Origin: Pseudomonadota bacterium
Lineage (GTDB): Bacteria > Pseudomonadota > Gammaproteobacteria > Burkholderiales > JAKAFK01
DNA length: 54,204 nucleotides
Assembly: GCA_021817985.1 (NCBI GenBank)
Contig: JAKAFK010000016.1
Location: forward strand, 1-54,204
Direction of reading: 5' to 3'
A program made the position numbers and the translations under genes. Shown here one piece after another: positions 12,288-47,667 of the stretch. The notes beneath the pieces were generated by a model. The model searched no databases. It had not been told where the DNA came from and worked only from the letters and a program-made list of their open reading frames with translations. Positions within the stretch are counted from its first letter, which is position 1; every line of letters begins with the position of its first letter.

Positions 12288-13649
12288 ATGGGAAGGTTCA
12301 GCAGGGGGCTCAGGCAGCGATGGAGGGCACTGACCGAGATGATCGGATCGGGGCTCGCTGCAAGCCTTATCGCCATCCTCGCGGCCAGCGCATTGGCCGT
12401 CGGCGTCTCGCTTTGGTTCATCCACGCCGCCCCGCCTTCGACCGTGACCATCACGAGCGGTCCGGCAGGCAGCATCTTCCAGCGAATTGCCGAGCGATAT
12501 CAGAAGGTGCTCGCCCGCAGCGGCATCCGGCTCAAGATCCTGACTTCGCAGGGCTCGCTGGAAAATCTCACCCGCCTGAATGACCCACGCTTCCGCGTGG
12601 ATATCGGGTTCGTGCAGACAGGCCTTGCCGCCGGCATGAACGTGGATCGACTGGTCTCTCTCGGCAGCATTGCCTATGAGCCCCTGCTCGTGTTCTACCG
12701 GGGTGCTCCCGCGGTGAGCGATCTTTCCGATCTCAAGGGCCGCCGCATCGCGGTGGGTCCGGTGGGAAGCGGCACGCGGACGCTTGCGCTGGAGATCCTC
12801 AAGCTGAACGGCATCGCGCCGGGCGGCACGACGCAGCTTCTCGCGCTCGACGGCCGGGCAGCCGCCGACGCCCTGATCCAAGGACGCATCGACTGCGCGT
12901 TTCTAATGGGAGAATCGGCCTCGCCCGCGATCTTGCGCGAGCTTCTGCATTCGCCCGGCATCGATCTCATGGACTTCCGCCAAGCGGACGCCTACACGCG
13001 CCGGTTCGATTATCTCAATAAGCTCGTGCTGCCGATGGGCGTCATCGACTTCGGCAAAAATATCCCCTCCCACGACATTCATCTCATCGCGCCCACGGTC
13101 GAACTGGTGGCGAGGGCGGGGCTGCACCCTGCGCTCTCGGACCTTCTGATCGATGCGGCCAGGCAGGTGAATGGCCGCGCCACGCTGCTCCAGCGCCGGG
13201 GAGAGTTCCCAGCACCCCTGGGCGACGAGTTCCGCATCAGCAGCGATGCGCTCCGCTATTACAAATCCGGCAAGAGCTTTCTCTACAGCGCCCTCCCGTT
13301 CTGGGTGGCAAGCCTTGTGGATCGCGTCCTGGCCGTGTTCCTACCGATACTCGTTCTGCTGATCCCGAGCTTCAAGATTCTTCCCGCACTGTATGCGTGG
13401 CGCATCAAGTATCGGATCTATCACTGGTACGGCGCGTTGCTGGACCTGGAACGCGACCTCCACGCCGGTGCCACGCCGCGCGAAGCGCTGCTCAGGCGAC
13501 TGGACACCATTGAGGAGGCGGTCAACCGGATGAAAATCCCGGTCGCCTTCGCGGATCAGCTCTATGTGTTGCGCGACAACATTCGTTTCGTCCGCGAGCG
13601 CATCGCAGAAGCGGCGAACATGGGGCCTCAAGCCGCCGAGGCCGGATAG
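12288..13649 (+). CDS. TAXI-family binding protein fused to a membrane domain
   Basis: Residues about 20-42 form a membrane anchor. A periplasmic TAXI-type solute-binding domain follows (TVTITSGPAGSIFQRIAERY, then VDIGFVQTGLAAGMN and YEPLLVFYRG), as in TRAP transporters of the TAXI class. After residue 340 there is a second membrane segment (VLAVFLPILVLLIPSF) and a cytoplasmic helical tail of about 90 residues. This binding-domain plus membrane-plus-tail layout is seen in proteins that act without a TRAP permease, and no permease gene lies nearby, so the protein may be a sensor or a scaffold rather than a transporter part. The ligand is unknown; related TAXI proteins bind small organic acids such as glutamate. 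Confidence 0.8.
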   Translation: MGRFSRGLRQRWRALTEMIGSGLAASLIAILAASALAVGVSLWFIHAAPPSTVTITSGPAGSIFQRIAERYQKVLARSGIRLKILTSQGSLENLTRLNDPRFRVDIGFVQTGLAAGMNVDRLVSLGSIAYEPLLVFYRGAPAVSDLSDLKGRRIAVGPVGSGTRTLALEILKLNGIAPGGTTQLLALDGRAAADALIQGRIDCAFLMGESASPAILRELLHSPGIDLMDFRQADAYTRRFDYLNKLVLPMGVIDFGKNIPSHDIHLIAPTVELVARAGLHPALSDLLIDAARQVNGRATLLQRRGEFPAPLGDEFRISSDALRYYKSGKSFLYSALPFWVASLVDRVLAVFLPILVLLIPSFKILPALYAWRIKYRIYHWYGALLDLERDLHAGATPREALLRRLDTIEEAVNRMKIPVAFADQLYVLRDNIRFVRERIAEAANMGPQAAEAG

Positions 13650-15220: not shown

Positions 15221-15388
15221 TTAGCGCGTCGCGAGCCAGCTTATCCCGGCAAGGACCACGACAGGCACCGCAAAGGCGGCATCCCGCGCATGGCCCGTGT
15301 GCACCAGCAGCCCCTCAAGGGCGAGCACCACCGCGACGATGGCGACATTCGCGCGGTCGCCGAACAAGGTCTTGAACAAGGCTTTCAT
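15221..15388 (-). CDS. 55-residue membrane peptide at the end of the transport array
   Basis: The 55-residue product (MKALFKTLFGDRANVAIVAV...) has a short basic/amphipathic start and two hydrophobic stretches, at about residues 14-28 and 37-52. Its ATG overlaps the stop of the COG4280-type gene by four bases (ATGA), which argues strongly for a real, co-translated gene. It is the last gene of the array. A role as a small subunit or regulator of the COG4280-type protein or of the ABC transporter is inferred from position only. The family is not recognised. Confidence 0.7.
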   Translation of the reverse strand: MKALFKTLFGDRANVAIVAVVLALEGLLVHTGHARDAAFAVPVVVLAGISWLATR

Positions 15389-16119
15389 GATGCCCCCTCC
15401 TCGGCGGCGGCGCGGCGCATACGCAACAGGGCTGCGACGCCCAACCCGGCCAGGAGGTAGAAGGCCACGAGCAGCGGCAGGCTCCAGTCCCCCGAGGGCC
15501 AGGCGGCGTCCCCGGCCAACGCCTCCAGGGTCCAGAACGTCCCGAAGGACACGATCATGGCGCCGACGCCAAACTTGATCGCGTTCTCCGGCACGCGGCG
15601 CAGCGGTGCCCGCGCCAGCAGGCCCGCGAGTGCCACCAAGGCGCACGCGAGCAGCGCCGCACTGGTCGCCACGAGAGGATGGCCGCTCTTGAGCCCCAGG
15701 GCCACGACGATCAGCCAGACCTCCAGGCCTTCCAGCAACACCCCCTTGAAGGCGATCAACCACGCGGCGCGACGGTCGCCGGCTGCCAGCCTGTGGCGGG
15801 TTTCGGCGAATTCCGCGTCCTCGTCGTGCAGGGCCTTGAGGCCGGCCGCCCTGGCAATGGCCTTAGCGAGCCAACGCACCCCGAACAGCAGCAGGAACAC
15901 CCCGATGATGAACTGCAGGCCGTGCATCTCGAGGCCCAGCCGCAGCACGCCGCCGGTCGCTACCGTCATCACGGCCAGCACGCCCAATGCCGCCGCGGCG
16001 GCGCCCGCCGCGCGCCCCCAGCCAATCGTCAGGCTCACCGCCAGTACAATCGTGAACGCCTCGACCCACTCCACCGTGGCGGTCAGGAAGGTGGCCAGAA
16101 ATATGCCCCAGTCAGACAT
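15385..16119 (-). CDS. COG4280-type multispanning membrane protein with two E-x2-E motifs
   Basis: The 244-residue protein has six to seven membrane helices. It has a striking internal repeat of glutamate motifs: VEWVEAFTIVLA (E17/E20) in helix 1 and LLEGLEVWLIVVALG (E130/E133) in the first helix after the central loop. These resemble the R-E-G-L-E motifs of FTR1-type iron permeases in sequence and in twofold arrangement, although the arginine is missing. The family matches the uncharacterised COG4280 membrane proteins. The start at 16119 lies inside the end of the ATPase gene (8-base overlap) and the end overlaps the 55-residue gene. An ion-permease or accessory role in this uptake system is inferred. 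Confidence 0.75.
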   Translation of the reverse strand: MSDWGIFLATFLTATVEWVEAFTIVLAVSLTIGWGRAAGAAAAALGVLAVMTVATGGVLRLGLEMHGLQFIIGVFLLLFGVRWLAKAIARAAGLKALHDEDAEFAETRHRLAAGDRRAAWLIAFKGVLLEGLEVWLIVVALGLKSGHPLVATSAALLACALVALAGLLARAPLRRVPENAIKFGVGAMIVSFGTFWTLEALAGDAAWPSGDWSLPLLVAFYLLAGLGVAALLRMRRAAAEEGAS

Positions 16120-17179
16120 GGCTGTGATCTCCGTCGGATGGAAAGACAAAAATATGCTCGGGGGCAATGTGAAGGCGCCCCTCGCCCGCGGCAGGCGGAC
16201 CCGCCTCGTAGCTGCACAGCGGCGTGTTGATACCTGACAGCTGCCAGTAGGCCCGATAGACCCCGGCCTCGAAAACGCAGTGCACAAGACGGGCCGGGAT
16301 GCCGTCGGCCCCATCGACCCGGATGCCGGCGGGCCGAATGAACACGCACGCCTCCTCGTCCTCCGTCACATTAGCCACGCTCGCTCGATGGAAGCGTCCA
16401 CCAAGCTCGACGCCCAGGCCCTCGTGGCTGCGTCGGACCCGGGCCATGAAGCCGCCCTGTGCCCCAATGAAGCGAGCCACTTGGGCTGTGGCGGGACTCG
16501 CATAGAGTGCCTGCGGCGACGCCGTCTGAGTGAGCGCACCGTTCTCAAGGACGGCAATACGGTCGGCCATGCGCCAGGCGTCCAGGGGATCGTGGCTCAC
16601 AAACAAGGCGCCGGCCCCGAACTCTCGGGTCAAGGCGCGGATCTCCAGGCGCAAGAACTCTCGGGCATCCACGTCCAGGCTTGACAGGGCCTCGTCGAAC
16701 AGCAGCAGATTCGGACGAGCCGCCAGCGCCCGGGCAATGCCGACGCGCTGCTGCTCTCCGCCGGAAAGCTGGGCGGGGCGCTTGTCGGCATGGTGCCCCA
16801 CCCCGATACGCTCCAGCAGCGCTTCGGCCAAGCGATTGCGCTCGGGGCCGCGTCCAGGGATGACTGCCGCGACGTTCTCCCGACAGCTCAGGTGGGGCCA
16901 CAGGGCATATTCCTGGAATACCATGCCCAAGCCGCGTCGCTCCGGCGGTGCCCACACGCCCTGCGCCGGCGCGTCCACATCTCGGCCCCGCAGTCGGATA
17001 ATGCCTCCATCGAGCCGTTCAAGTCCTCCAATCAAGCGCAGCAGCGTCGTCTTGCCGGAGCCGGAGCCGCCGATCAGCACCACGAACTCTCCCGGCGCCA
17101 TGCTGAAGGTGACATCGCGAAGCACGCGGGTGCGGCCATAGCGCTTGTCGACCGAACGCATTTCCAATAGATCGTTCAC
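16112..17179 (-). CDS. ABC importer ATPase, FbpC/PotA-like
   Basis: The 355-residue protein has a full ATPase domain: Walker A GGSGSGKTT, Q-loop MVFQEYALWPHL, signature LSGGEQQRVGIARAL, Walker B LLLFDEALSSLD and switch histidine in FVSHD. A C-terminal TOBE-like regulatory domain follows (about residues 250-355), as in the FbpC/AfuC/PotA importer class. The start is GTG 17179, preceded by GAGGAG; a longer frame exists but has no homology. It overlaps the permease stop by four bases (GTGA) and the next gene by eight, so the array is tightly coupled. It would power uptake through the permease encoded upstream. Confidence 0.9.
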   Translation of the reverse strand: MNDLLEMRSVDKRYGRTRVLRDVTFSMAPGEFVVLIGGSGSGKTTLLRLIGGLERLDGGIIRLRGRDVDAPAQGVWAPPERRGLGMVFQEYALWPHLSCRENVAAVIPGRGPERNRLAEALLERIGVGHHADKRPAQLSGGEQQRVGIARALAARPNLLLFDEALSSLDVDAREFLRLEIRALTREFGAGALFVSHDPLDAWRMADRIAVLENGALTQTASPQALYASPATAQVARFIGAQGGFMARVRRSHEGLGVELGGRFHRASVANVTEDEEACVFIRPAGIRVDGADGIPARLVHCVFEAGVYRAYWQLSGINTPLCSYEAGPPAAGEGRLHIAPEHIFVFPSDGDHSHV

Positions 17180-18789
17180 GCGGCGCACTCCTCGGTGCGG
17201 CGTACCGGACTGGCGGCGCGCAACAGCAGGGCCAGCAAGACCGCGATGGCGAGCGCCAAGCCAATGCCCGCGAACGCGAGCCGTGCTTCTTCGCCATAGC
17301 GCAGCTGCATGTTCAAGGTCACCAAGGCCACACCGATGGGCGGGCGACCCGCAGGATAGAGCAAATCCGAGATGGGGAGTTCGAAGAAAATCTGGCCAAA
17401 GGCCAGGGTCCATCCCCACAGGAACGGCGAGAGCAAAAGCGGCGCGTGAATCTCCAGGAGGCGGCTGGCCCAGGGGACGCCGTGCAAACGGGCCGCCTCG
17501 GACAGGTTGCCATGCACCTGCCCGAGGGGCCCCTGCAGGAACCGCATCAGCATGGGCACCTGGGCTGCCACGTAAGCAACAATCAGAAGCAGCGGCGTGC
17601 CATAGAGCGGCAACCACCGATCGTTGAAGGCAATCACATAGGCCGCCCCCAGCACCAACCCCGGGATCGCCATATTGCCCAGGCTGACCGCTTCCAGCAG
17701 GCGTCCCGCACGCGCGCCACCGGAGCGTCGGCTCATCACGACGGACATGGCCGCTGCCACCGCCAAAGCGGCCCCGAGGCTGGCATAGATCGTGGAATAG
17801 AGCAGGCTGTCCCACCGTATCGGACGGGTCGCATCAACACTGGTCGGCCAGATCGCCACATAGGCCAACGCCGCGCCCGGCAACGCCAGGCCAAGGGTGG
17901 CCAGCACGGCCAGCGCGCCGCCCGCCGCCCGGCGCTCCATCGGGCGGCAAGGCACCGCTGCCGCCGGACGCGCACGGCCGTGAACCAGCACACCGCTGTG
18001 CCGCTTCCCCAGGTACAGGTGGACTCCTCCGGCCAGGGCCGCCAGCCCGACCAGCGCCCAGCTCAACCGAGCCGCGCCGGCAAACTGCACGGGCGCCGTG
18101 GCGAGGTGCTCGTAGATGGCATAGGTGAGGATGCGCAGATGCAACTGCGCCCCGAGGGTCGACGGGATACCGAATTCCTGGATGCTCTCCGCAAACACCA
18201 CAGCGAAGGCCGACCCGGCCGCAGGGAGCAACACGCGCAGCAATACGCGGCGCCGGCGCCAGGCGGACAGGCCGAGAATTCGCGCCGCATCTTCCAATTC
18301 CGCGCCGATGGCGGCCCAACTGCTGCGTGCCGCCAAAGTCGCAAAAGGCAGCCCTTTAAGGCTCAGAAGCGCGACGATGCCGGCCTCGCTGAAAAACAGG
18401 TCTGCCAGCAGGCCATGGTGCAGGAACCGGGTCGAGAAGACGATCTCCCACGCGGTCGTGAGCAGATAGCTCGGCGTCAGCAACACCATCCACAGCACGG
18501 CCATAAGCCAGGCATTGCCGCGCCAACGTCGCCGCTCCAGCAGCCAGCCGAACCACACACCCACCGGCACCGCCACCAGGGTGCTGGTCAACCCCAGCCG
18601 CAGGGTATTGGCGATCGCCTCCAGGTTCAGGGCGGCGTCTTCCGCATGGGCCGCGACTTGTGTCGGGCCAAGAGCCGGAAACCATGGCAGCAACAGCAAT
18701 CGGACGATGGGATAGACGAACAATCCGGCAAAAAGCAGGAGCGGGGCCGCGCTGCGAAGGGGGCGGCCGATACGTCGCAGCCGGTTCAT
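17176..18789 (-). CDS. ABC importer permease with two fused halves (FbpB-like)
   Basis: The 537-residue protein has about twelve helices in two homologous halves, the FbpB/AfuB layout in which both permease domains are in one chain. EAA-type loops that contact the ATPase are seen at LEDAARILGLSAWRRR (near residue 180) and LSEAARLHGVPWASRL (near residue 450). The start ATG 18787-18789 shares one base with the binding-protein stop. Such permeases carry ferric iron, hexose phosphates or organophosphonates, so the permease alone does not fix the substrate. Confidence 0.9.
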   Translation of the reverse strand: MNRLRRIGRPLRSAAPLLLFAGLFVYPIVRLLLLPWFPALGPTQVAAHAEDAALNLEAIANTLRLGLTSTLVAVPVGVWFGWLLERRRWRGNAWLMAVLWMVLLTPSYLLTTAWEIVFSTRFLHHGLLADLFFSEAGIVALLSLKGLPFATLAARSSWAAIGAELEDAARILGLSAWRRRRVLLRVLLPAAGSAFAVVFAESIQEFGIPSTLGAQLHLRILTYAIYEHLATAPVQFAGAARLSWALVGLAALAGGVHLYLGKRHSGVLVHGRARPAAAVPCRPMERRAAGGALAVLATLGLALPGAALAYVAIWPTSVDATRPIRWDSLLYSTIYASLGAALAVAAAMSVVMSRRSGGARAGRLLEAVSLGNMAIPGLVLGAAYVIAFNDRWLPLYGTPLLLIVAYVAAQVPMLMRFLQGPLGQVHGNLSEAARLHGVPWASRLLEIHAPLLLSPFLWGWTLAFGQIFFELPISDLLYPAGRPPIGVALVTLNMQLRYGEEARLAFAGIGLALAIAVLLALLLRAASPVRRTEECAA

Positions 18790-19808
18790 CACTGGCCGAC
18801 CACGACGCGGCTGAACCAGCTGTTGATGCTGGCCTCCCGCGCACCCCACTGGGCAGCGGGCAGCACCTCGACATCGATGCCGTGGAGAGACGGCAAGCGC
18901 TTGTTCGGCGACGGCGCATTGCGGGTGAGGGGCCAGTAGAGGGCGTCCCCCTCGCTGTCGGCCATGCGCAGCCGTTGGGTCGCGGGCGCCATGGCAAAGC
19001 GGATGAACCGTTCTGCCTCCGTCTGCAGGCGCTCCGGCGTCCCCGCCGCGACCATGATGACACTGGGCAGCGCGAACGCGGGCGTGGGAAGAACGACCCT
19101 AAGGTTCGCGTCCTGGGCCGCCCAGTTCCAGGCCGCCGACGACTGGGTGATGGCAAGCTTGATGTCACCGGCCTTGAGCGCGGCCAGGGTATTGGCATTC
19201 TTCGGGTAGACGCGAAGGCCGTTGGCTTTGAGGCCCAGGACGAAGGATTTGCCGGCCGGCCAGCCGCCGGCCTGGGAGAGCATACCCGCCAGCATGGGGA
19301 ACATCGGCCCCGAGATGGCGGGGTTGTTCATGCCGATGGCCCCGCGCAGCGCGGGGTTTTCCAGGTCGGACCAGCGTCGCGGCGGGGTCGCGAGAGTCGA
19401 CGGCCGGTAGGTGAACGCACCGGCCAGGGTGAGGCCCGTTGGGGTGTAGCTGCCGTCGGCCGGCACCAGCTTGCGCCCCAGAGACGTCCAGGGAAGCTCA
19501 GGCACCGTATGCAAGGCAGCCAAGTGGGCACGGTCCAACCCGGCCGCGGCCTCATTGCCGTCAAACCAGGCCAACGTCCACTTTGGGCGGTCCCCCTCGG
19601 CGGAGACTCTGGCGAGCAGGGCGCCCGTCGACACGTCCACGACGGTCACTGGAATGCCCGTGGCGCGGGTGAATGCGCGGGCCACATCGTCTCCGTAATC
19701 CACGGCGCTGTACAGCACCAGACCCTGCGGCCCTCGCGGCCACAAAGCCCAGCCTGCGGCCACGACCAGCGCAAGCAAAACAAAGCCAATCGGCAGCAGT
19801 CGCTTCAC
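18789..19808 (-). CDS. ABC importer binding protein, FbpA/AfuA-like, without the iron-binding tyrosine pair
   Basis: The 339-residue protein has an N-terminal membrane or signal segment (LLPIGFVLLALVVAAGWAL) and a type II periplasmic binding fold starting LVLYSAVDYGDD, as in ferric-binding and hexose-phosphate-binding proteins. Its start is GTG 19808, with GGAGG eight bases upstream. In FbpA, ferric iron is held by two adjacent tyrosines inside a sequence like N-H-Y-Y-W; here the corresponding place, after KAGDIKLAIT, reads SSAAW (residues about 223-227). Both tyrosines are therefore missing if this alignment is right. This argues against a standard FbpA-type iron binder and for a different ligand, such as a phosphorylated compound. 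Confidence 0.85.
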   Translation of the reverse strand: MKRLLPIGFVLLALVVAAGWALWPRGPQGLVLYSAVDYGDDVARAFTRATGIPVTVVDVSTGALLARVSAEGDRPKWTLAWFDGNEAAAGLDRAHLAALHTVPELPWTSLGRKLVPADGSYTPTGLTLAGAFTYRPSTLATPPRRWSDLENPALRGAIGMNNPAISGPMFPMLAGMLSQAGGWPAGKSFVLGLKANGLRVYPKNANTLAALKAGDIKLAITQSSAAWNWAAQDANLRVVLPTPAFALPSVIMVAAGTPERLQTEAERFIRFAMAPATQRLRMADSEGDALYWPLTRNAPSPNKRLPSLHGIDVEVLPAAQWGAREASINSWFSRVVVGQ

Positions 19809-19898
19809 GATGTGATCCTCCAGGAAATACAAAAAATTGCCACGTTGTCACGAGACGCGCACGGGGACTGGCGGATCCCCTCCGGCCGCCCGTTCCCG

Positions 19899-21455
19899 TC
19901 AGGGATTGCGCGCCGCCGGCCGGTCCGCGGCGAGACGAACGCCCGCCAGATCCGCCCAGGGCTCGCCGGGGAGCACCCGCGTGCCTTGCAGGGCCACCGC
20001 CCGCAGGAGGTGCGTCGACAATCCCAGACTCGCAAGAATGGTCGGGGCCACCTGCGTCGTGGAGACGCGCTCCCGCACCTCCACATCGCGCCGCGCCAAG
20101 TGGGGATTCGAAACCAGCAGTGCAACACTGGTGTCGTCCGCGCTGAAGCCGCCATGTTCGGCCTTCTTGGGATCGCCCGCCCGCGCATAGATGACCCCGT
20201 CCCTCGGAATGACGATCATATCGGGCGCGCGGGAGTCGCTTCGCCGCAGCCCGAGTCGCCTCAAAAGGCCGCGCCCAAAGAGGACGCGGCGCACGCCAAG
20301 CGCCTTTCGGTGCGCGCGCAGCGCCGCCACCACGGCCTTCACTTTGGCTGCGTCTCGCAGCCAGATGAGGGCGACTTGGTCGGCGGTGATTTGTGCAACC
20401 TCGCCTTGCGCGGCACGGGCAACGACACGTTCCAGCAGGCGCCGGTCGACATGCCTGACGGCATGCGGGTCAATCGGCCCATTCCCGTGCTTGGCGGTGA
20501 CGATGACCAGCGTGGAGCCCAGAAGCCTGCGGGCGCGCAAGGCGGCGACGATGCGCCCGATCTGGCGATCGCAGTGGACCAGTGCGGCCTCGAGAGTCGG
20601 GGACGGGTGGCCGGCGGCATCCTGGTAGCCCCCCAGCTTCTCGCCCACGTTTGCGGCCTGCAAATTGAGCCCGAAGAGTGTGGGCACCGGCGCAGGCACC
20701 CGCCCGTCATGACGGAACCCGCCGATCTCGTGCAGCAGCGCGTCGACCTTGCCATCGTCGTACCGCTCGGTATGCGAGAGGCTCGCCATGATCGCACCCC
20801 TTCCCTGGCCCACAGGCCCGGCGAAATTCGCGCCAATCTCCGGCGTATAGAGGTCGTTCACCCCCTTCCCGCTCGGACCGTCGACGATCTCGTAGACCGG
20901 GTGCTTATCGATCCAAGCCGTATAGCCGCCTGCCGCCCTCACCACCTCGAAAAGGGTATTGACCCGCAAGTAATCGTGGGGATAGACCGGCGCGCAGCCT
21001 CGCCTCGGGTCTCGCGGCAGGCGGGCCGGATCGATCGTCGGGGCGCCGGGCGCAGCACCCGGCTGGTCGACCGTCTCATCGAAGACCACGGGCGTCCCGA
21101 CACGCCTGCACCGGCTGCCCGGCGGCGAGAGGCGTCGGTCATACGTCACGTCGTAATACACCCCGGTGACCGCAGGCGTTCCACCCGTGACGAGCGCCAG
21201 CAAGCCAGGAAACGAGTCCGCAGGCGCCACCGTATGCGCGCCGCCGTATACGACGCCATCGCGCGCAAGCGTCGCCAGCGCCGAGCGGGGGTGTGCCCGA
21301 ATGAACAACCGAAGATCCTGGGCATGCAAGCCGTCCACGCTGATCATCAAGACATGCCCGACCGCATGCCCGCCGGGTTGGAGCGCGTGCGCCATCGGCG
21401 CCATCCCGGCCAGGACAGCCGTGATAACGCCCAACTGAAACCATTTGTTTTTCAT
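19899..21455 (-). CDS. Exported alkaline-phosphatase-superfamily hydrolase (nucleotide pyrophosphatase/phosphodiesterase-like)
   Basis: The 518-residue protein has a signal peptide (MKNKWFQLGVITAVLAGMA) and the two-metal hydrolase core. D41 in MISVDGLH is the first metal ligand, and the nucleophile is probably S81 in APADSFPGLLALVTGG. Further metal ligands should be in AWIDKHP (about 181-186), in VHCD (about 293-296), in the TAKHGNGP block (about 320-326) and in the EHGGFSADD block near 440. Family members cleave phosphodiesters, phosphomonoesters or phosphonoacetate outside the cytoplasm. It lies 90 bases before the binding-protein gene on the same strand, after TonB, which suggests it frees a substrate from a phosphorylated compound for the ABC importer. 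The exact substrate cannot be told. Confidence 0.85.
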   Translation of the reverse strand: MKNKWFQLGVITAVLAGMAPMAHALQPGGHAVGHVLMISVDGLHAQDLRLFIRAHPRSALATLARDGVVYGGAHTVAPADSFPGLLALVTGGTPAVTGVYYDVTYDRRLSPPGSRCRRVGTPVVFDETVDQPGAAPGAPTIDPARLPRDPRRGCAPVYPHDYLRVNTLFEVVRAAGGYTAWIDKHPVYEIVDGPSGKGVNDLYTPEIGANFAGPVGQGRGAIMASLSHTERYDDGKVDALLHEIGGFRHDGRVPAPVPTLFGLNLQAANVGEKLGGYQDAAGHPSPTLEAALVHCDRQIGRIVAALRARRLLGSTLVIVTAKHGNGPIDPHAVRHVDRRLLERVVARAAQGEVAQITADQVALIWLRDAAKVKAVVAALRAHRKALGVRRVLFGRGLLRRLGLRRSDSRAPDMIVIPRDGVIYARAGDPKKAEHGGFSADDTSVALLVSNPHLARRDVEVRERVSTTQVAPTILASLGLSTHLLRAVALQGTRVLPGEPWADLAGVRLAADRPAARNP

Positions 21456-21546
21456 GTTCTTCTCGTTCTGCTCGGCGAACGCCGCCAACCCTTATATTTC
21501 CGCCGCCCTCCCAGGGATGTCCGCCGTCCCTGTCTTCTTGGCGAAC

Positions 21547-22269
21547 TCAATGCCTCTTGAAATGGAACAGGACCCACAGCCCCAAATTGAACGTCTTATG
21601 CGCCAGTTGCTTAGGCGGCACGGGAAGCGTCGCGTCCCGGACCGCGCTCAGCGCATTGGCATTGAAAACGCCGAGCCCTCCGGGCGTCACGATGGTCAAA
21701 TGACTCACGACCCCGTCACGAAGGTCGAAACGCACCTGCACCTTCCCCTGCGCCCGCAACAGGCGGGCCTCGTCCGGAAACCTGACGGCGTCCTGGATGG
21801 CGCTTCGCACCTCCCCCAGATAGGTGGCCCTTTCCCCGGGGTTTGGCAGCGGAACGGGTGGCGGCACTGCCTTGGGGGGTGGCAGCACCGGCGCGGCCAC
21901 CGGAGAAGGCGGCAGCGGGGCCGGGGGCTTAGGCATCGGAATCGGCCGGGGCGGCGGTGGCATCACGGGCTTGATGCGGCGATGCAGCACGCGAGGCTTG
22001 ATCACCTTGGGCTTCGGTCGCGGATGGGGCTTCACCCGAGGCTTGGGCGGCACGACAGGCTTCGGGAGCTGGACCAGGCGCACCTCTTCGATAGGTGGTG
22101 GTGTCTGCGGCGTGTATCGATGCGCGAGCACCCATACGACGCCGACGAGCAGCAGCACCTCCACCACGATCGCCAGCCCAAACGCGGAACCCAGGCGAGA
22201 GTCGGGCCGCAATTCGGCTTCCGAGAGCGGAGGCGGAGGCGACGAAAAAACCATGGGAATCGCGGTCAT
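21547..22269 (-). CDS. tonB: TonB energy transducer
   Basis: The 240-residue protein has one membrane anchor near the N-terminus (about residues 25-50), then a long proline- and lysine-rich stretch (KPRVKPHPRPKPK and PPPPRPIPMPKPPAP) that spans the periplasm, and a C-terminal TonB domain at about 150-240 (YLGEVRSAIQDAVRFPDEA, GKVQVRFDLRDGVV). It passes the inner-membrane proton force to outer-membrane receptors. The start, ATG 22269, lies four bases past exbD, so exbB-exbD-tonB form one unit. The receptor upstream in the same array is the likely partner. Confidence 0.92.
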   Translation of the reverse strand: MTAIPMVFSSPPPPLSEAELRPDSRLGSAFGLAIVVEVLLLVGVVWVLAHRYTPQTPPPIEEVRLVQLPKPVVPPKPRVKPHPRPKPKVIKPRVLHRRIKPVMPPPPRPIPMPKPPAPLPPSPVAAPVLPPPKAVPPPVPLPNPGERATYLGEVRSAIQDAVRFPDEARLLRAQGKVQVRFDLRDGVVSHLTIVTPGGLGVFNANALSAVRDATLPVPPKQLAHKTFNLGLWVLFHFKRH

Positions 22270-22273
22270 GGCT

Positions 22274-22660
22274 TCATCGCGGCTTCGCTGCCAGTCCGAC
22301 GGCGGTGATGCCGGCCTTGCGGCAGGCATCCATGACCTTGACCAACTGCTGCACGTCCGCGCCCTTGTCGGACGCGATCGTGATCTGGGTCTTCGCCGGG
22401 CGCCCACGCAGCCGGGCGGTCAGTTGCGCCAGCATGACCGGCTGGCCGTCGAGTTCGAGCGAGCCATCGTCGTGCAGCGTCAGCATCAGTTTCGGCGGCG
22501 GCAGGGTTTGCGCGGTGGTCGAGCCGGGCAGATGGGAGGGAATCCCTTGCGCCGGGATCATGTGGATCGTGACCATGACGAAGAACACCAGCAGGAACAG
22601 CATGATGTCGATCATGGGAATGATTTCGACACGCCCCTTGCGCATTTCCAGGTATTGCAT
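22274..22660 (-). CDS. exbD: ExbD biopolymer transport protein
   Basis: The 128-residue protein has a single N-terminal membrane helix with the key aspartate in VEIIPMIDIMLFLLVFF (the conserved M-(I/T)-D-(V/I)-(M/F) site that carries protons) and a small periplasmic domain. It works with ExbB and TonB. The gap to exbB is three bases. Confidence 0.92.
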   Translation of the reverse strand: MQYLEMRKGRVEIIPMIDIMLFLLVFFVMVTIHMIPAQGIPSHLPGSTTAQTLPPPKLMLTLHDDGSLELDGQPVMLAQLTARLRGRPAKTQITIASDKGADVQQLVKVMDACRKAGITAVGLAAKPR

Positions 22661-22663
22661 GGC

Positions 22664-23341
22664 CTATCTCTCCTGCGCCGCATAGATGGTCGCGGTGGCC
22701 TGGGAAGCGTGCAGGCCGTTGTGATGGTCGACCCCGTCCAGGCGGTTTACAAGCATGGTTCGCAAGGTCTCCATCTGGTGGACCAGATAACGGACCCGGT
22801 TATGGAGTCCATTGAAGGCCACCAGCCCGATCACAGCGATCACGAGGCCGAAGGCCGTGGCCATCAGGGCTTCGCCCACGCTGCCGGTTATCTGCACCGC
22901 ATCGCCGGCCGCGTTGCCCATAAACTGGAACGCATGGAACATGCCGATGATGGTACCCAGCAAGCCGAGCAGCGGGGCAAGCGTGATGATCGTGTCCAAG
23001 AGCCACATGCGCCGGTCCAGGGTGGGCACCTGCCGCATCACCACCTCCTGCAGGAGCTCCGACAGCTTGCCGCTGTCGCGCACACGCGGGAATCGGACAG
23101 GCACTTCGAGAATCGCCTTGAACGGCGCACCGGTGCGTTCTCCCAAGCCGCGCAGGCTGCCATGGTCGAGATGGCTCAACTGGGCCACGGACTCGGCCAC
23201 CCTTTCCCCATCACGCTGAATACGGGCAAGGACCAGAAAACGCTCGATGCCGATCGTCAACGCGGTCAGCAGCAAAATCGGCATCAGGTAAAGAATACCG
23301 CCTGAATGACTCGCCACTTCGTTCAGATTCTGCCAGTTCAT
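22664..23341 (-). CDS. exbB: ExbB/TolQ/MotA-type proton channel protein
   Basis: The 225-residue protein has three membrane helices with a large cytoplasmic loop after the first, the ExbB topology. The conserved core is visible: LLDTIITLAPLLGLLGTIIG then SVGEALMATAFGLVIA, which carry the T/A residues lining the proton path. It forms the inner-membrane motor with ExbD. It is the first gene of the exbB-exbD-tonB unit, with the promoter expected in 23342-23500. Confidence 0.92.
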   Translation of the reverse strand: MNWQNLNEVASHSGGILYLMPILLLTALTIGIERFLVLARIQRDGERVAESVAQLSHLDHGSLRGLGERTGAPFKAILEVPVRFPRVRDSGKLSELLQEVVMRQVPTLDRRMWLLDTIITLAPLLGLLGTIIGMFHAFQFMGNAAGDAVQITGSVGEALMATAFGLVIAVIGLVAFNGLHNRVRYLVHQMETLRTMLVNRLDGVDHHNGLHASQATATIYAAQER

Positions 23342-23742
23342 CGTGTGCTCACCTCCATCATGCCGATGGCCCGCAGCCGGCCAACGCGGCTTATGCCCAC
23401 CGGTGGGATCGTCCCGCTCTCCATGCTCTTGCGTCCTCGACTATTACAATGCTAGGAAAATCGTGTTGCAGGCTCATGAAACTTTTGTGACGCCCTCGGC
23501 CAGGGTCGATCTGTCGTGCCGGCTCGCCCATCGCAGCGCCGTACGGCGGTTCCTGCGCCGTCGCGGAGGGCAACACCTTCCGCCGAGCGGCCGTCTACAT
23601 CGCACGGTCGGGCATGGAGCGACGCCGGCAAACCGGCCGGCTTGAATTCCCCCTGGCCTGTAGACGTAGGGCAAAGACCACTGGGTTGCGCCGCCCGGCC
23701 TGCCCCAGCTTCCGGGAAGGCCAGGCGACTCGCGGGTCGGGG
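23342..23742. other. Intergenic stretch before exbB, with a weak PHO-box-like element
   Basis: The 400 bases between the receptor gene and exbB hold no gene. The part near 23440-23495 is AT-richer. On the minus strand it reads GCGTCACAAAAGTTTCATGA (23474-23493), which loosely fits two 11-base PHO-box units of the CTGTCAT-n4 type (about 13 of 19 positions). A possible -10, TGTAAT, follows about 30 bases downstream. The match is weak. Confidence 0.35.
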
Positions 23743-26103
23743 TCAGAAATCGGCCTTGAGCCCCGCATAGTAGGTGCGCGGTGCACCCGGCATGGCGAGG
23801 GTATATCCGGGCGTGCCACCAAACCAGCCGCCCCCGCTGATGAACTGGTCCACGTTGTATTGCTTGTTCGTCAGGTTGAGCACACCCGCATTCAACACCA
23901 CGTCCCGCAGGAAGGCCTGATGCAGCGGCACGGTCGCGTCCAGATTGAAGTTCCACAGACCATAAGCCGGCATCTTCTGGTTGGTCGGCGCAGTGGCCAT
24001 GTCGCTCCACATGTATTGCGGACCCGTATACTCGTAACTCAGGGCCGGAACCCAGAGCGCACCCGCCGCATAGGCCTTGTAGCTCACGCCTGCACTGAAG
24101 GTGCGCAGAGGCACCTTGGACACAGGCAAGCCACTGTAGCTGAGGCCACCATTGTTGATCGTGTAATTGCTGAAGTCCGCCTTCTCGATGTTCAGGTGCG
24201 CGAAGACGCCCACGTGGTACCCGAGATCGTCAGCCAGCGAGAGATTCACGCCCCTGTAGGTTGAATCGCCAAGGGCATCACCCACATAGTCGCCCGCCAG
24301 GGTTGTCAGCGGGATGAACTGGTTCAGATAGCGCAGGTGGAAATACGCGACCGACATCAGGAAATGACGCAGGTATTGGGCGCGGGGGACGTAGATCTTG
24401 AAGCCCAGGTTGTAGTCCTTGGCCTGCTCGAGCTTGTAGATCGGCGGTTCGGTCTGGAACAGCCCGCCGCCGCCGCCGACCGTCGGTTCCTTGTAAGTCT
24501 CGGCGTAGTTGGCGAAGGTCGACAGCCACGGCAGCACCCGCAAGTTGGCGCTGATCGAAGGCTCCCATTTGTGGTGGCTGGCGGTCGAACCGGGGCTCGT
24601 ACCCTGGTCGTTGCCCGGCGCCAACGCATAGGACGTCGCGAAATCGGACGCTCCGGCCGGACTGTAGACCGTCCAGTAATTGATGAAGCGAATGCCCGGT
24701 GTGATGTCCAGGTTGGCGGTCGGACTGATCTTGTCCTGCGCGAAGACGGCCAGATCGGTCTGGTCGAAATAGTTGCTGCGGTAGTGCCCGTTCGGCGTCG
24801 AAATGCTGCCATAGACCGTCGTCGAGGTGCCCACGAGATCGGCTGGATTGTAGAAGGAATTGCGGCTGTTATACGTGCTCTTGATGAGAGAAACGCCGGT
24901 CGAGATCAGGTTGTACGGGAGCGAGAGATCACCCCAGAACTTGTCGCCGTAGATCGACGTAGACGGATTATTGTATTCGTACAGGTTTCCGGGGCTCGTC
25001 AGGCCATAGTTGGCATAGTGCTGGTGGAGCCGCTTCTCCATCTGGTACCACAGCAGATTGTGCAGCGTCAGTCCCTGATTGACCGCGGCGTTGAGCTTGG
25101 CATAGATGATCCGCGTCTTGTTCGTGTCGTCCTTACGCCAGATGTCGCCCGGCAAGGTGCTGTAGAAACCCGTCGTCTGCTGGCTGTACAGCGGGGTGTT
25201 GGGCGTGCCGTCCACGGTCACGCCGGCAACAGGGGTCGTCGGCACGACCAATGGGCGGTAGCCTTGGCTCTTGGCCTGGTAGATGCCCACCGAGAAATCG
25301 CCGTTGTCGAACGTCTTGCGCGTCTTGAGGAAGACGGCGTAATTCTTGCTGCGGCTATCGAAGCCGTCTGGGGCTTGGCGGTAGCTGTCAGCGGAGCCGG
25401 TGCCGCCGGCCAGCACGGTCGACCAGCCGTCATGCGTTCCGGTGTTGAGCTGGAAGGTATAATTGCGTGAACTGTCGCTGCCCACGCTGAAACCGACCGA
25501 ACCCCCGAATTTGTTGCTGGGTTGCACCGGCACGAAGCCGATCTGGCCGCCGATGTTGTTGAACCAGCGGTCTTCCGGGTCGCCGGGGCCATACGTGATG
25601 CCGATGCCCTGGATCATGCTCAGTTGCGGCACCAGGTCGGTTTGCCACAGTCCGCTCGACGGATTGGCCATCGGCACGCCGTCGAAGGTGACGGACAAAG
25701 AGCCATTGTCGATCTGCGACCCGCTGAATCCGCCCCAGCCCTGCTTGATCCCGTTGATGCTGATGGAGTTCTTGGTGGAGCCGGTCACGCCGTAGCCGGA
25801 GACGCTCACACCCGGCGCAAGCTGAAGGGCCTGCGCCGCGCCCGCGAAGGGTCCAACCGATTTGAGTTCGGCCTTGCGCAGGACCGTCACCGACTGCCCT
25901 GACTTGAAGACGTGGCGCTTACTGATCTTCTTCGCTTGGCTGGTCTTCGCGGGCTTCCCGCTGCTCGATCCCTGTGCGTTGGCCTGTACGCTACCGAGGT
26001 TGGTTGGCCCTTGCGCAAACGCGTTCCCTGCACTCGCCGCGACAATTGTGGCAAGCATGATTCGTAGAAGCGGCTTCATTCTCATGTCCGGTCCATCACA
26101 CAT
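23743..26103 (-). CDS. TonB-dependent outer-membrane receptor
   Basis: The protein of 786 residues has a signal peptide (LLRIMLATIVAASAGNAFA), a plug domain (residues about 55-190, with AQALQLAPGVSVSGYG and ISINGIKQGWGGF) and a C-terminal beta-barrel that ends in an aromatic residue (GLKADF), as required for outer-membrane insertion. No heme, siderophore or cobalamin motif stands out. I chose ATG 26103 because GGGAGAG lies upstream; ATG 26085 or 26079 would also give a good signal peptide. The gene precedes exbB-exbD-tonB on the same strand after a 400-base gap. It probably imports the substrate that the exported hydrolase and ABC importer downstream process. The ligand is unknown. Confidence 0.9.
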   Translation of the reverse strand: MCDGPDMRMKPLLRIMLATIVAASAGNAFAQGPTNLGSVQANAQGSSSGKPAKTSQAKKISKRHVFKSGQSVTVLRKAELKSVGPFAGAAQALQLAPGVSVSGYGVTGSTKNSISINGIKQGWGGFSGSQIDNGSLSVTFDGVPMANPSSGLWQTDLVPQLSMIQGIGITYGPGDPEDRWFNNIGGQIGFVPVQPSNKFGGSVGFSVGSDSSRNYTFQLNTGTHDGWSTVLAGGTGSADSYRQAPDGFDSRSKNYAVFLKTRKTFDNGDFSVGIYQAKSQGYRPLVVPTTPVAGVTVDGTPNTPLYSQQTTGFYSTLPGDIWRKDDTNKTRIIYAKLNAAVNQGLTLHNLLWYQMEKRLHQHYANYGLTSPGNLYEYNNPSTSIYGDKFWGDLSLPYNLISTGVSLIKSTYNSRNSFYNPADLVGTSTTVYGSISTPNGHYRSNYFDQTDLAVFAQDKISPTANLDITPGIRFINYWTVYSPAGASDFATSYALAPGNDQGTSPGSTASHHKWEPSISANLRVLPWLSTFANYAETYKEPTVGGGGGLFQTEPPIYKLEQAKDYNLGFKIYVPRAQYLRHFLMSVAYFHLRYLNQFIPLTTLAGDYVGDALGDSTYRGVNLSLADDLGYHVGVFAHLNIEKADFSNYTINNGGLSYSGLPVSKVPLRTFSAGVSYKAYAAGALWVPALSYEYTGPQYMWSDMATAPTNQKMPAYGLWNFNLDATVPLHQAFLRDVVLNAGVLNLTNKQYNVDQFISGGGWFGGTPGYTLAMPGAPRTYYAGLKADF

Positions 26104-26965
26104 CGCTTTCTCTCCCGTCTTGGTCATTTTTTGGCACAGGGTCGAGGGGAACTAGCCCCATTTCACCGGCATCATCGCTAGGCAGCCCCCTATGGAAGGC
26201 CGAATAGAATGCGGCGCAGTCTCGGAAACGGGAGAAGTCTAAGAGAACAATGTGACGTCAGTATTGACCCATTCTTACCCGAGACTTACATAACCCTATG
26301 CAACAGGACCATTGCCCATAGGGCTGAGCATGCTTCCAGGATGGGCGCCCTAATACCAATTTTTCCATTGCAGGCAATCGATCGGGGCGTAGAGGAGAAA
26401 CGCACGGTATTCGCCAAAATGGCAATGCGCGAAAACGCATAGGGCGACAATCAATAGGGCCGACTGATCGCAACACGACCCGCGAGGGTAAAATTTACTT
26501 CACGGCCCTAACGACGCTCTGCTGCAACCGCCGCTCCGTCCGGACCAAGGGCGGCACGGCCACGACGCGGTATCGCAATTGGCAGCATGGCCTCGCTTGC
26601 ACTCAATCGACGTCCTCCGCCGGGGGCATCAAAGGCGACCTCATGAGAATCCCTTCTTGGCGGCGGCGTGAGATAAAATGGCTTGTGGGCAGAATTTGCG
26701 GGTGAAGCCCTAGTTTTTGGGCAGCCAGATGGTTGGTGGCACTGAGGCGGTGGCGTGGGTTCGCGCGCTTGTGCACGCTTTGTCCACGGCAAGCGGCCTC
26801 GAGGCCAAGCGCAGCGATGGGCAAAGGGTGCGTAAGTGCGCCCCGGGGCGGATACGTGCTGGAGCACACGATGCGTCGGTTGGAACGGACTGAGAAGGAG
26901 CATCCTGGCAAGATTTCTGAGAGAATGAAGTTGTCCAGACAAACATTCCTCACGACAAGGCCAGG
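26104..26965. other. Accessory intergenic stretch upstream of the receptor
   Basis: About 860 bases with lower GC in its first third (26200-26480), which probably holds the receptor promoter. The rest has broken frames on both strands and looks like decayed insertion-element DNA leading into the ISL3 remnant. No intact gene was recognised. A TGACGTCA palindrome near 26250 is noted without interpretation. Confidence 0.4.
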
Positions 26966-27260: not shown

Positions 27261-27582
27261 CCACTACCCCGGTGGGATGACTGGGTGCACGTTTCGCTCG
27301 CTTCCCCAGCCATGTTGGCTTCCACAAAATACGTTTCGAGGCCTGCTCAGCGTTCACTCGCGTTGCAGCCCGCATGCTCGCTAAGGCCCTTACAGGACGC
27401 TGTTGCACCAGACGCTTCAACCGCTTTGTTACCTTCACGGTTGCTCCCCTTGCTGCCGGCCGGAGCGAAAGGTGCCGGGCGGGAGTCGCACCCGCTGAGA
27501 GGCGCCACCTTTTCACGGCGCACACAAAGTAGAACCAATCACATAAAATTTTGGGGCCAGCCCATTTTCGGGGAGACCATCC
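27261..27582. other. Stretch between the transposase remnant and the FAH-family gene
   Basis: About 320 bases. No intact gene; a plus-strand frame reads as a basic stretch (e.g. ARMLAKALTGRCCTRRFNRF) of the type often seen in insertion-element flanks. The downstream part (27530-27570) is less GC-rich and may hold the promoter of the next gene. Confidence 0.35.
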
Positions 27583-46866: not shown

Positions 46867-47667
46867 TCAAAAAGCCAAGCATCCGCCCGAGACCGCGTTG
46901 CGCCCTTGCAGCGCGGCGGCAAAGCGGCCAAACTCCAGTCCGTAGGCCGCTTCCAAAGCCTGCGCGCGCCGTTGGAGCTCGCGCCAGGCGGGACAGCCCA
47001 GCCCATCCCGGAAGGCGAGCACAATGACATTCCCGCGCCGCTCGGCGGGCAACTGCAGGATACGCCCCTCGAAGCTCGCCCCAATGCGCCGCACGAATTG
47101 CCCAAAGCGCCTATCGCTCCCCCACAGGTTCACCACCAAGACCCCGCCCGCGGTCAGCGCGCGCAGACAGTCGTCATAGAATGCCTCCGTGCACAGCGAG
47201 GCCGCCGGCTCTGCACCGTCGAATCCGTCGACCATGATGACATCGGCGCAGCACGGATGCGCCGCGACGAAATCCGCGCCGTCCCCGATTGCCACCTGCA
47301 AGCGCTCGTCATCGCCCGGCAACGCGAAGTAGGCGCGCGCCGCCGCCACCACCTGCGGATTGATTTCCACCGCCGTCACCCGCGTCGTCGCCAAACGGTG
47401 GTGGATGAATTTGGCGAGCGAGCCGCCCCCCAGCCCGACCACCAGCACATGGGCGGGCGCCGGCGCAAAAAGCAGAAAGCCCATCATGCTGCGGGTGTAG
47501 GACAACTCGAGCTCGTGCGGCGCCGAAATGCGCATCGAGCTCTGAATCGTGTCGGAGCCGCCCAGATGAAGCGAGCGTATCCCATCATGCTCGCTGATGT
47601 CGACCGCTTCCGCGGCATCGCCTTTGTGCGCGCCCCAGCGCCAGAACGGTTTCATCTCATTTTTCAT
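46867..47667 (-). CDS. Spermidine-synthase-like methyltransferase-fold protein
   Basis: The 266-residue protein has the Rossmann-type fold of spermidine synthases: VLVVGLGGGSLAKFIHHRL, VTAVEINPQVVAAARAYF, IGDGADFVAA and VIMVDGFDGAEPA. The first acidic residue of the usual active-site pair D-G-x-x-x-x-(T/S)-x-x-D-E is replaced by LHLGGSDTIQSSMR near residue 40, so it may not make spermidine. Related proteins of this size are annotated as fused or orphan spermidine synthases. It stands alone between rppH and proS. Confidence 0.8.
   Translation of the reverse strand: MKNEMKPFWRWGAHKGDAAEAVDISEHDGIRSLHLGGSDTIQSSMRISAPHELELSYTRSMMGFLLFAPAPAHVLVVGLGGGSLAKFIHHRLATTRVTAVEINPQVVAAARAYFALPGDDERLQVAIGDGADFVAAHPCCADVIMVDGFDGAEPAASLCTEAFYDDCLRALTAGGVLVVNLWGSDRRFGQFVRRIGASFEGRILQLPAERRGNVIVLAFRDGLGCPAWRELQRRAQALEAAYGLEFGRFAAALQGRNAVSGGCLAF

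Follow-up and report, generated by a model that had tools for sequence, protein, structure and literature searches.

A ten-gene receptor-to-importer cluster

We analyzed a 54,204-nucleotide stretch of contig JAKAFK010000016.1 (the 54-kb window) from a Burkholderiales bacterium. Ten open reading frames (ORFs), all on the minus strand and running from 26103 to 15221, encode an outer-membrane receptor, an ExbB-ExbD-TonB complex, an exported hydrolase, an ATP-binding cassette (ABC) importer, and two additional membrane proteins. The first ORF encodes a TonB-dependent receptor of 786 residues (23743..26103, with an alternative possible start at 26127) that shares 96% identity with its counterpart in a sister species. 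It is separated by a 401-bp gap containing a conserved regulatory element from the genes for an ExbB-type proton channel (22664..23341; MotA_ExbB profile, 96% identity in the sister), ExbD (22274..22660; 97% identity), and a TonB-type protein (about 21547..22269; TonB_C profile, with TIGR01352 just above its cut-off). The TonB-dependent transport set is complete, with PF00593, PF07715, PF01618, PF02472, and PF03544 all above cut-off.

Next, each preceded by about 90 bp, are the genes for a hydrolase of the alkaline-phosphatase superfamily (19899..21455; PF01663, Phosphodiest, E 2.5e-26), with an N-terminus that resembles a signal peptide by eye, and for a solute-binding protein (18789..19808), assigned from PF13416 (SBP_bac_8), its orthologues, and solved relatives. 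The importer is completed by a permease with two fused domains (17176..18789; PF00528, BPD_transp_1, in two stretches) and an ATPase (16112..17179; PF00005, ABC_tran). The last two genes encode a COG4280-type membrane protein (15385..16119) and a 55-residue membrane peptide (15221..15388). From the binding protein onward, the five genes overlap by 1, 4, 8, and 4 bases.

The original prediction of ten one-strand genes with an overlapping final five is borne out by the ORFs, by Pfam support, and by conservation in the sister species. Its description of a single cluster holds for gene content and order, but the cluster may form two transcripts, because the gap with its conserved regulatory element divides the receptor gene from exbB. 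Of the NCBIfam matches shown, none reached an equivalog cut-off, and the one model passed was the generic one for the TonB C-terminus. In the genome itself (4.0 Mb, 96% complete), receptors with PF00593 number only two and ExbD-family genes three.

Two recurrent modules are joined in one cluster

Two recurrent modules, otherwise found apart, make up the cluster. One consists of the receptor, ExbB-ExbD-TonB, and the hydrolase, and the other of the binding protein, fused permease, ATPase, COG4280 protein, and small peptide. In the sister species (public contig JAJYKK010000049.1), all ten genes are present in the same order with 80-97% identity (91% for the 55-residue ORF), and the arrangement is therefore not due to chance. 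Among the genomes examined, the full set was found in this genus only.

We followed the first module in 80 named loci, each with a gene for a hydrolase relative. Among the nearest of these (about 53-65% identity, the sister excepted), a receptor gene, often with those for ExbB, ExbD, and TonB, precedes the hydrolase gene, and the hosts include Paraburkholderia, Caballeronia, Trinickia, Sulfuriferula, a Ferrovaceae metagenome-assembled genome, and Rhodanobacter. Except in the sister, the binding protein, permease, and COG4280 protein were absent from the fetched flanks of these loci, some of which lie on short contigs. For the second module, we searched 274 genomes of the class with the binding protein (E <= 1e-25). 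It was found in this genome and in three others only (G139, G254, and G360), each from a different family. In all three it is encoded in an operon with the permease, ATPase, and COG4280 protein, adjoining a receptor gene; the small peptide is present in two, ExbB and ExbD in two, and the hydrolase in none.

Phylogenetic analysis placed the receptors in two distant subfamilies. Our receptor groups with the hydrolase-linked receptors of loci L040, L046, and L049 and with that of G139, which is ABC-linked. The other subfamily, of Paraburkholderia type, contains about thirty receptors linked to the hydrolase, as well as those of G360 and G254, which are ABC-linked and share 52% identity with each other. 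Either subfamily thus pairs with both modules in different genomes, and the window unites the two modules. The tie is not absolute, as receptors of our subfamily also occur with neither module. Because each subfamily occurs with either module, the two modules probably handle the same kind of ligand.

A PhoB-type array precedes exbB

A PhoB half-site matrix predicted a PhoB-binding array, GCGTCAC-GTTTCAT-CTGCAAC-TTTTCCT-TTGTAAT, at 23443..23493 (minus strand), in the 401-bp gap ahead of exbB. Four units follow an exact 11-bp period and a weaker GCGTCAC stands before them. Within the 54-kb window, the array ranked first of about 108,000 positions on either strand, whether three, four, or five units were scored. 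The gap as a whole is 61% identical to that of the sister species, but identity rises to 92-98% in 40-base windows over the array. As a positive control, the pst genes of this genome carry a strong box by the same matrix; the second receptor locus, a negative control, has no comparable array.

We profiled 24 hydrolase-linked loci and found that arrays before the receptor gene or exbB were enriched at a period of 11 (Fisher p = 2e-10), compared with a best p of 8e-6 at the control periods 9, 10, 12, and 13. In several loci, including those of Rhodanobacter, Sulfuriferula, and Silvimonas, the PhoB-type site was the best of its locus. The binding protein-permease-ATPase-COG4280 genes of two alphaproteobacteria of one genus, close relatives counted here as one case, follow an RpiR-SIS regulator gene (L112:12395-13400 and L113:12505-13510), with a strong PhoB-type box, the best of its locus, about 60 bases ahead of it. 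RpiR regulators with a SIS domain usually sense phosphosugars. From these sites, we conclude that the cluster is probably under PhoB-type, phosphate-starvation control.

In a separate locus (L142:9866-12163, plus strand), a tandem receptor pair is present without hydrolase or ABC genes, and a PhoB-type array before the second receptor ranks second in that locus.

An NPP-type hydrolase and a binding protein akin to phospho-ligand binders

The hydrolase scores 93.5 bits with PF01663, the profile of the NPP (type I phosphodiesterase) family, for which the cut-off is 23, and it retains D41, S81, H323, and H434. In 83 aligned rows, S81, K322, H323, and H434 were invariant, D41 was present in 82, and the KHG motif (K322-H323), which aligns with the DHG metal motif of solved NPPs, was present in all; this invariance is biased, as the set was partly picked by a KHG-containing pattern, and two members found otherwise also carry KHG. 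By alignment with solved NPPs, the hydrolase lacks the complete canonical two-metal ligand set, which includes the Asp-His of DHG. Its metal site may be unusual, because Lys replaces the metal-binding Asp of this motif, and its activity could be unlike that of classical NPPs.

The binding protein has a hydrophobic N-terminal segment with no obvious cleavage site, a probable membrane anchor. In a profile search of solved relatives, the best matches were P5PA, which binds pyridoxal phosphate, and a binder of glucose-6-phosphate. The ferric binder HitA scored nearly as well, and a thiamine-binding protein also matched. T61, S166, and G167 of the P5PA phosphate site (residues from PMC8427247) are retained, the Ser-Gly part being common to ferric binders too, and the ring contact His203 is replaced by Ser224. 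The structure model of the protein was poor (predicted local distance difference test, pLDDT, 60), and pocket geometry was not used.

Three described binder types were rejected. The Tyr195 and Tyr196 iron ligands of an FbpA-type ferric binder align with Ser and Ala. For the hexose-phosphate binder AfuA, the sugar ligands His205, Asp206, and Glu229 (PMC4546632) correspond to Ser224, Ala225, and Ala246 in a profile alignment with an inferred numbering offset. For the 2-aminoethylphosphonate importer PhnSTU, the NCBIfam equivalog scores were 28.6 against 392.75 bits for the binding protein (phnS2), 90.1 against 593.25 for the permease, and 256.4 against 457.7 for the ATPase.

The COG4280 protein resembles cation transporters

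The COG4280 label is indirect and comes from relatives at about 48% identity annotated as 'COG4280 domain-containing' or 'TMEM165/GDT1 family'. We scanned 15 members of the family with profiles, and OFeT_1 matched all 15 (best E-value 1.7e-9), GDT1 eight, and FTR1 five; the protein of the cluster itself scored 22.7 bits for OFeT_1, below the cut-off of 26.9. The alignment contains two conserved ExxE motifs with invariant Glu residues, and the model has eight helices (pLDDT 79). A fold search with this model gave no significant match. Judging from the profile matches, the COG4280 protein is probably distant kin within the OFeT/FTR1/GDT1 group, and a cation transporter is our best guess for its function.

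A small ORF follows the COG4280 gene in most loci inspected, and homologues of the 55-residue peptide occupy this position in two other families, at 49% and 40% identity. A search of viral contigs found no COG4280 relative, and a text search of the open-access literature found no paper under the COG4280 name. On rhizobial and related plasmids, COG4280 genes are often near those for ChrB, PAP2 phosphatases, or metal transporters. In four plasmid loci (L124, L125, L157, and L159), COG4280 adjoins or lies near genes for a PAP2-family phosphatase and ChrB, which hints at a second setting, linked to phosphate or oxyanions.

A candidate route for organic phosphorus across both membranes

We interpret the cluster, with reasonable though far from full confidence, as a phosphate-starvation system under PhoB control for scavenging an organic phosphorus compound, which would cross both membranes by a TonB-to-ABC route. 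The receptor, powered by its own ExbB-ExbD-TonB complex, would bring a phosphorylated ligand into the periplasm, where the exported hydrolase would cleave it. The anchored binding protein would then capture a phosphate-bearing or similar anionic product for transfer into the cytoplasm by the permease and ATPase. The COG4280 protein and its small partner would act as a cation transporter for a ligand-associated ion (for example, a counter-ion or a freed metal), and PhoB would act at the array ahead of exbB. The original prediction also proposed a receptor-to-ABC path for a phosphorylated compound, and this fits the PhoB-type boxes, the kinship of the binding protein with phospho-ligand binders, and the recurrent receptor pairings. 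More tentatively, and as a possibility to which we give somewhat less than even weight, such a route may have evolved from two receptor-linked modules and require the COG4280 protein and its partner for ion movement.

Several observations weigh against this interpretation. The matrix represents Escherichia coli sites written from general knowledge, and some enrichment was seen at the control periods too, because promoters are AT-biased. Unit for unit, the array is weaker than the pst box of the same genome, and the receptor gene itself has no PhoB-type box. In the locus scan, most Burkholderiaceae clusters lacked a clear PhoB-type box (the Paraburkholderia elongata locus encodes its own two-component system), and the ABC-only clusters of the class have weak boxes at most. 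The kinship of COG4280 with iron and divalent-cation transporters also points elsewhere.

This kinship belongs to the main rival, metal uptake, in which the receptor would import a phosphate or organophosphate chelate of Fe(III) or another metal, the hydrolase would free the metal, and an FbpABC-type importer would take it up, with COG4280 as an FTR1-like permease. The OFeT_1, GDT1, and FTR1 matches and the close similarity of solved ferric-binding proteins to the binding protein are in keeping with it, as is its nearness to the published model for phosphatase-linked TonB clusters of Acidithiobacillus (PMC2631029). However, the FbpA tyrosines are replaced here, and a PhoB-type array is present instead of a Fur-like site: in a consensus count that did not cover the exbB gap, the best Fur box before the receptor gene agreed at 11 of 19 positions, no better than chance (p about 0.65 compared with shuffled sequence). 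We consider metal uptake unlikely. The earlier suggestion that the hydrolase frees a metal for ABC transport fits the kinship of COG4280 with cation transporters but loses weight because the binding protein lacks the ferric ligands.

The two modules could also be unrelated operons that happen to be neighbors, one for receptor and hydrolase and the other for a separate ABC system, as would fit their separation in all other genomes seen and the stretch of about 90 bp between the hydrolase and binding-protein genes. We find this improbable, since both modules are tied to the same two receptor subfamilies in different genomes and the sister species retains their order and spacing. Whether receptor and ABC genes stay together in relatives, a point on which the original prediction depended, has a divided answer: hydrolase-type clusters elsewhere are without ABC genes, but the ABC module was always beside a TonB receptor in the class-wide sample. 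Least probable, with very little weight, is a route for a cofactor or vitamin in phosphorylated form (thiamine or B6 phosphates, for instance), trimmed by the hydrolase and imported as vitamin or monophosphate; among solved structures P5PA is nearest to the binding protein, a thiamine-binding protein matches too, and NPP enzymes are established to cleave pyrophosphates, but no riboswitch was found in the window, the P5PA ring contact is lost, and PhoB-type control would be unusual for vitamin uptake.

Comparison with known systems

Text searches limited to the open-access literature revealed no described system with this exact gene set, and the original prediction likewise knew of none. The FecA3-ExbBD-TonB-SLP-PhoD clusters of Acidithiobacillus, proposed for uptake of phosphate-associated Fe(III), likewise combine a TonB receptor, its own ExbBD-TonB, and a phosphoesterase in a bacterium from acid environments, and their function is also a prediction (PMC2631029). 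Compared by description only, they differ in the phosphoesterase family by name (PhoD), a surface-layer protein, and predicted Fur sites, and neither an ABC importer nor COG4280 is named there (PMC2631029). Experimental work on the PUMA3 locus of Pseudomonas aeruginosa found exbB2-exbD2-tonB4 to be PhoB-dependent, so that ExbB-ExbD-TonB genes there respond to phosphate through PhoB; the portion of that report considered here centers on sigma-VreI signaling and does not describe an NPP hydrolase with an ABC importer (PMC4971064). In sphingomonads, an organophosphate hydrolase is coupled to the TonB complex, so that a periplasmic phosphoester hydrolase and a TonB system together supply phosphate, but the enzyme is a phosphotriesterase rather than NPP-type and the substrates are synthetic organophosphates (PMC7142613). 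AfuABC and P5PAB are phospho-ligand ABC importers once misread as iron transport (PMC4546632, PMC8427247). Their binding proteins are of the same superfamily, with phosphate-site residues partly retained here, but the ring-contacting residues are lost here, and a TonB receptor, hydrolase, and COG4280 partner are not described for them.

TonB-dependent uptake of phosphorus is little described compared with that of iron, vitamins, and sugars. If our interpretation is true, phosphate starvation is the proper setting of a widespread receptor-Exb-TonB-hydrolase module that is easily taken for iron uptake, and COG4280 gains a testable context. A PhoB-controlled route that requires COG4280 would represent a new class of phosphorus acquisition, with a first function for COG4280.

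Other features of the window

Defence-system models gave no match. The opposite strand near the cluster (12288-13646, plus) encodes a periplasmic binding protein of NMT1-like type (PF16868), which also has a phosphonate-binding match below threshold. ARAGORN predicted a 92-base tRNA-Thr(cgt) at 47196-47287 (minus), which is below the reporting threshold of the Rfam tRNA model. Upstream of the cluster, positions 27358-27497 (minus) match the Rfam family group-II-D1D4-4 with 78.9 bits and mark a group II intron or its remnant.

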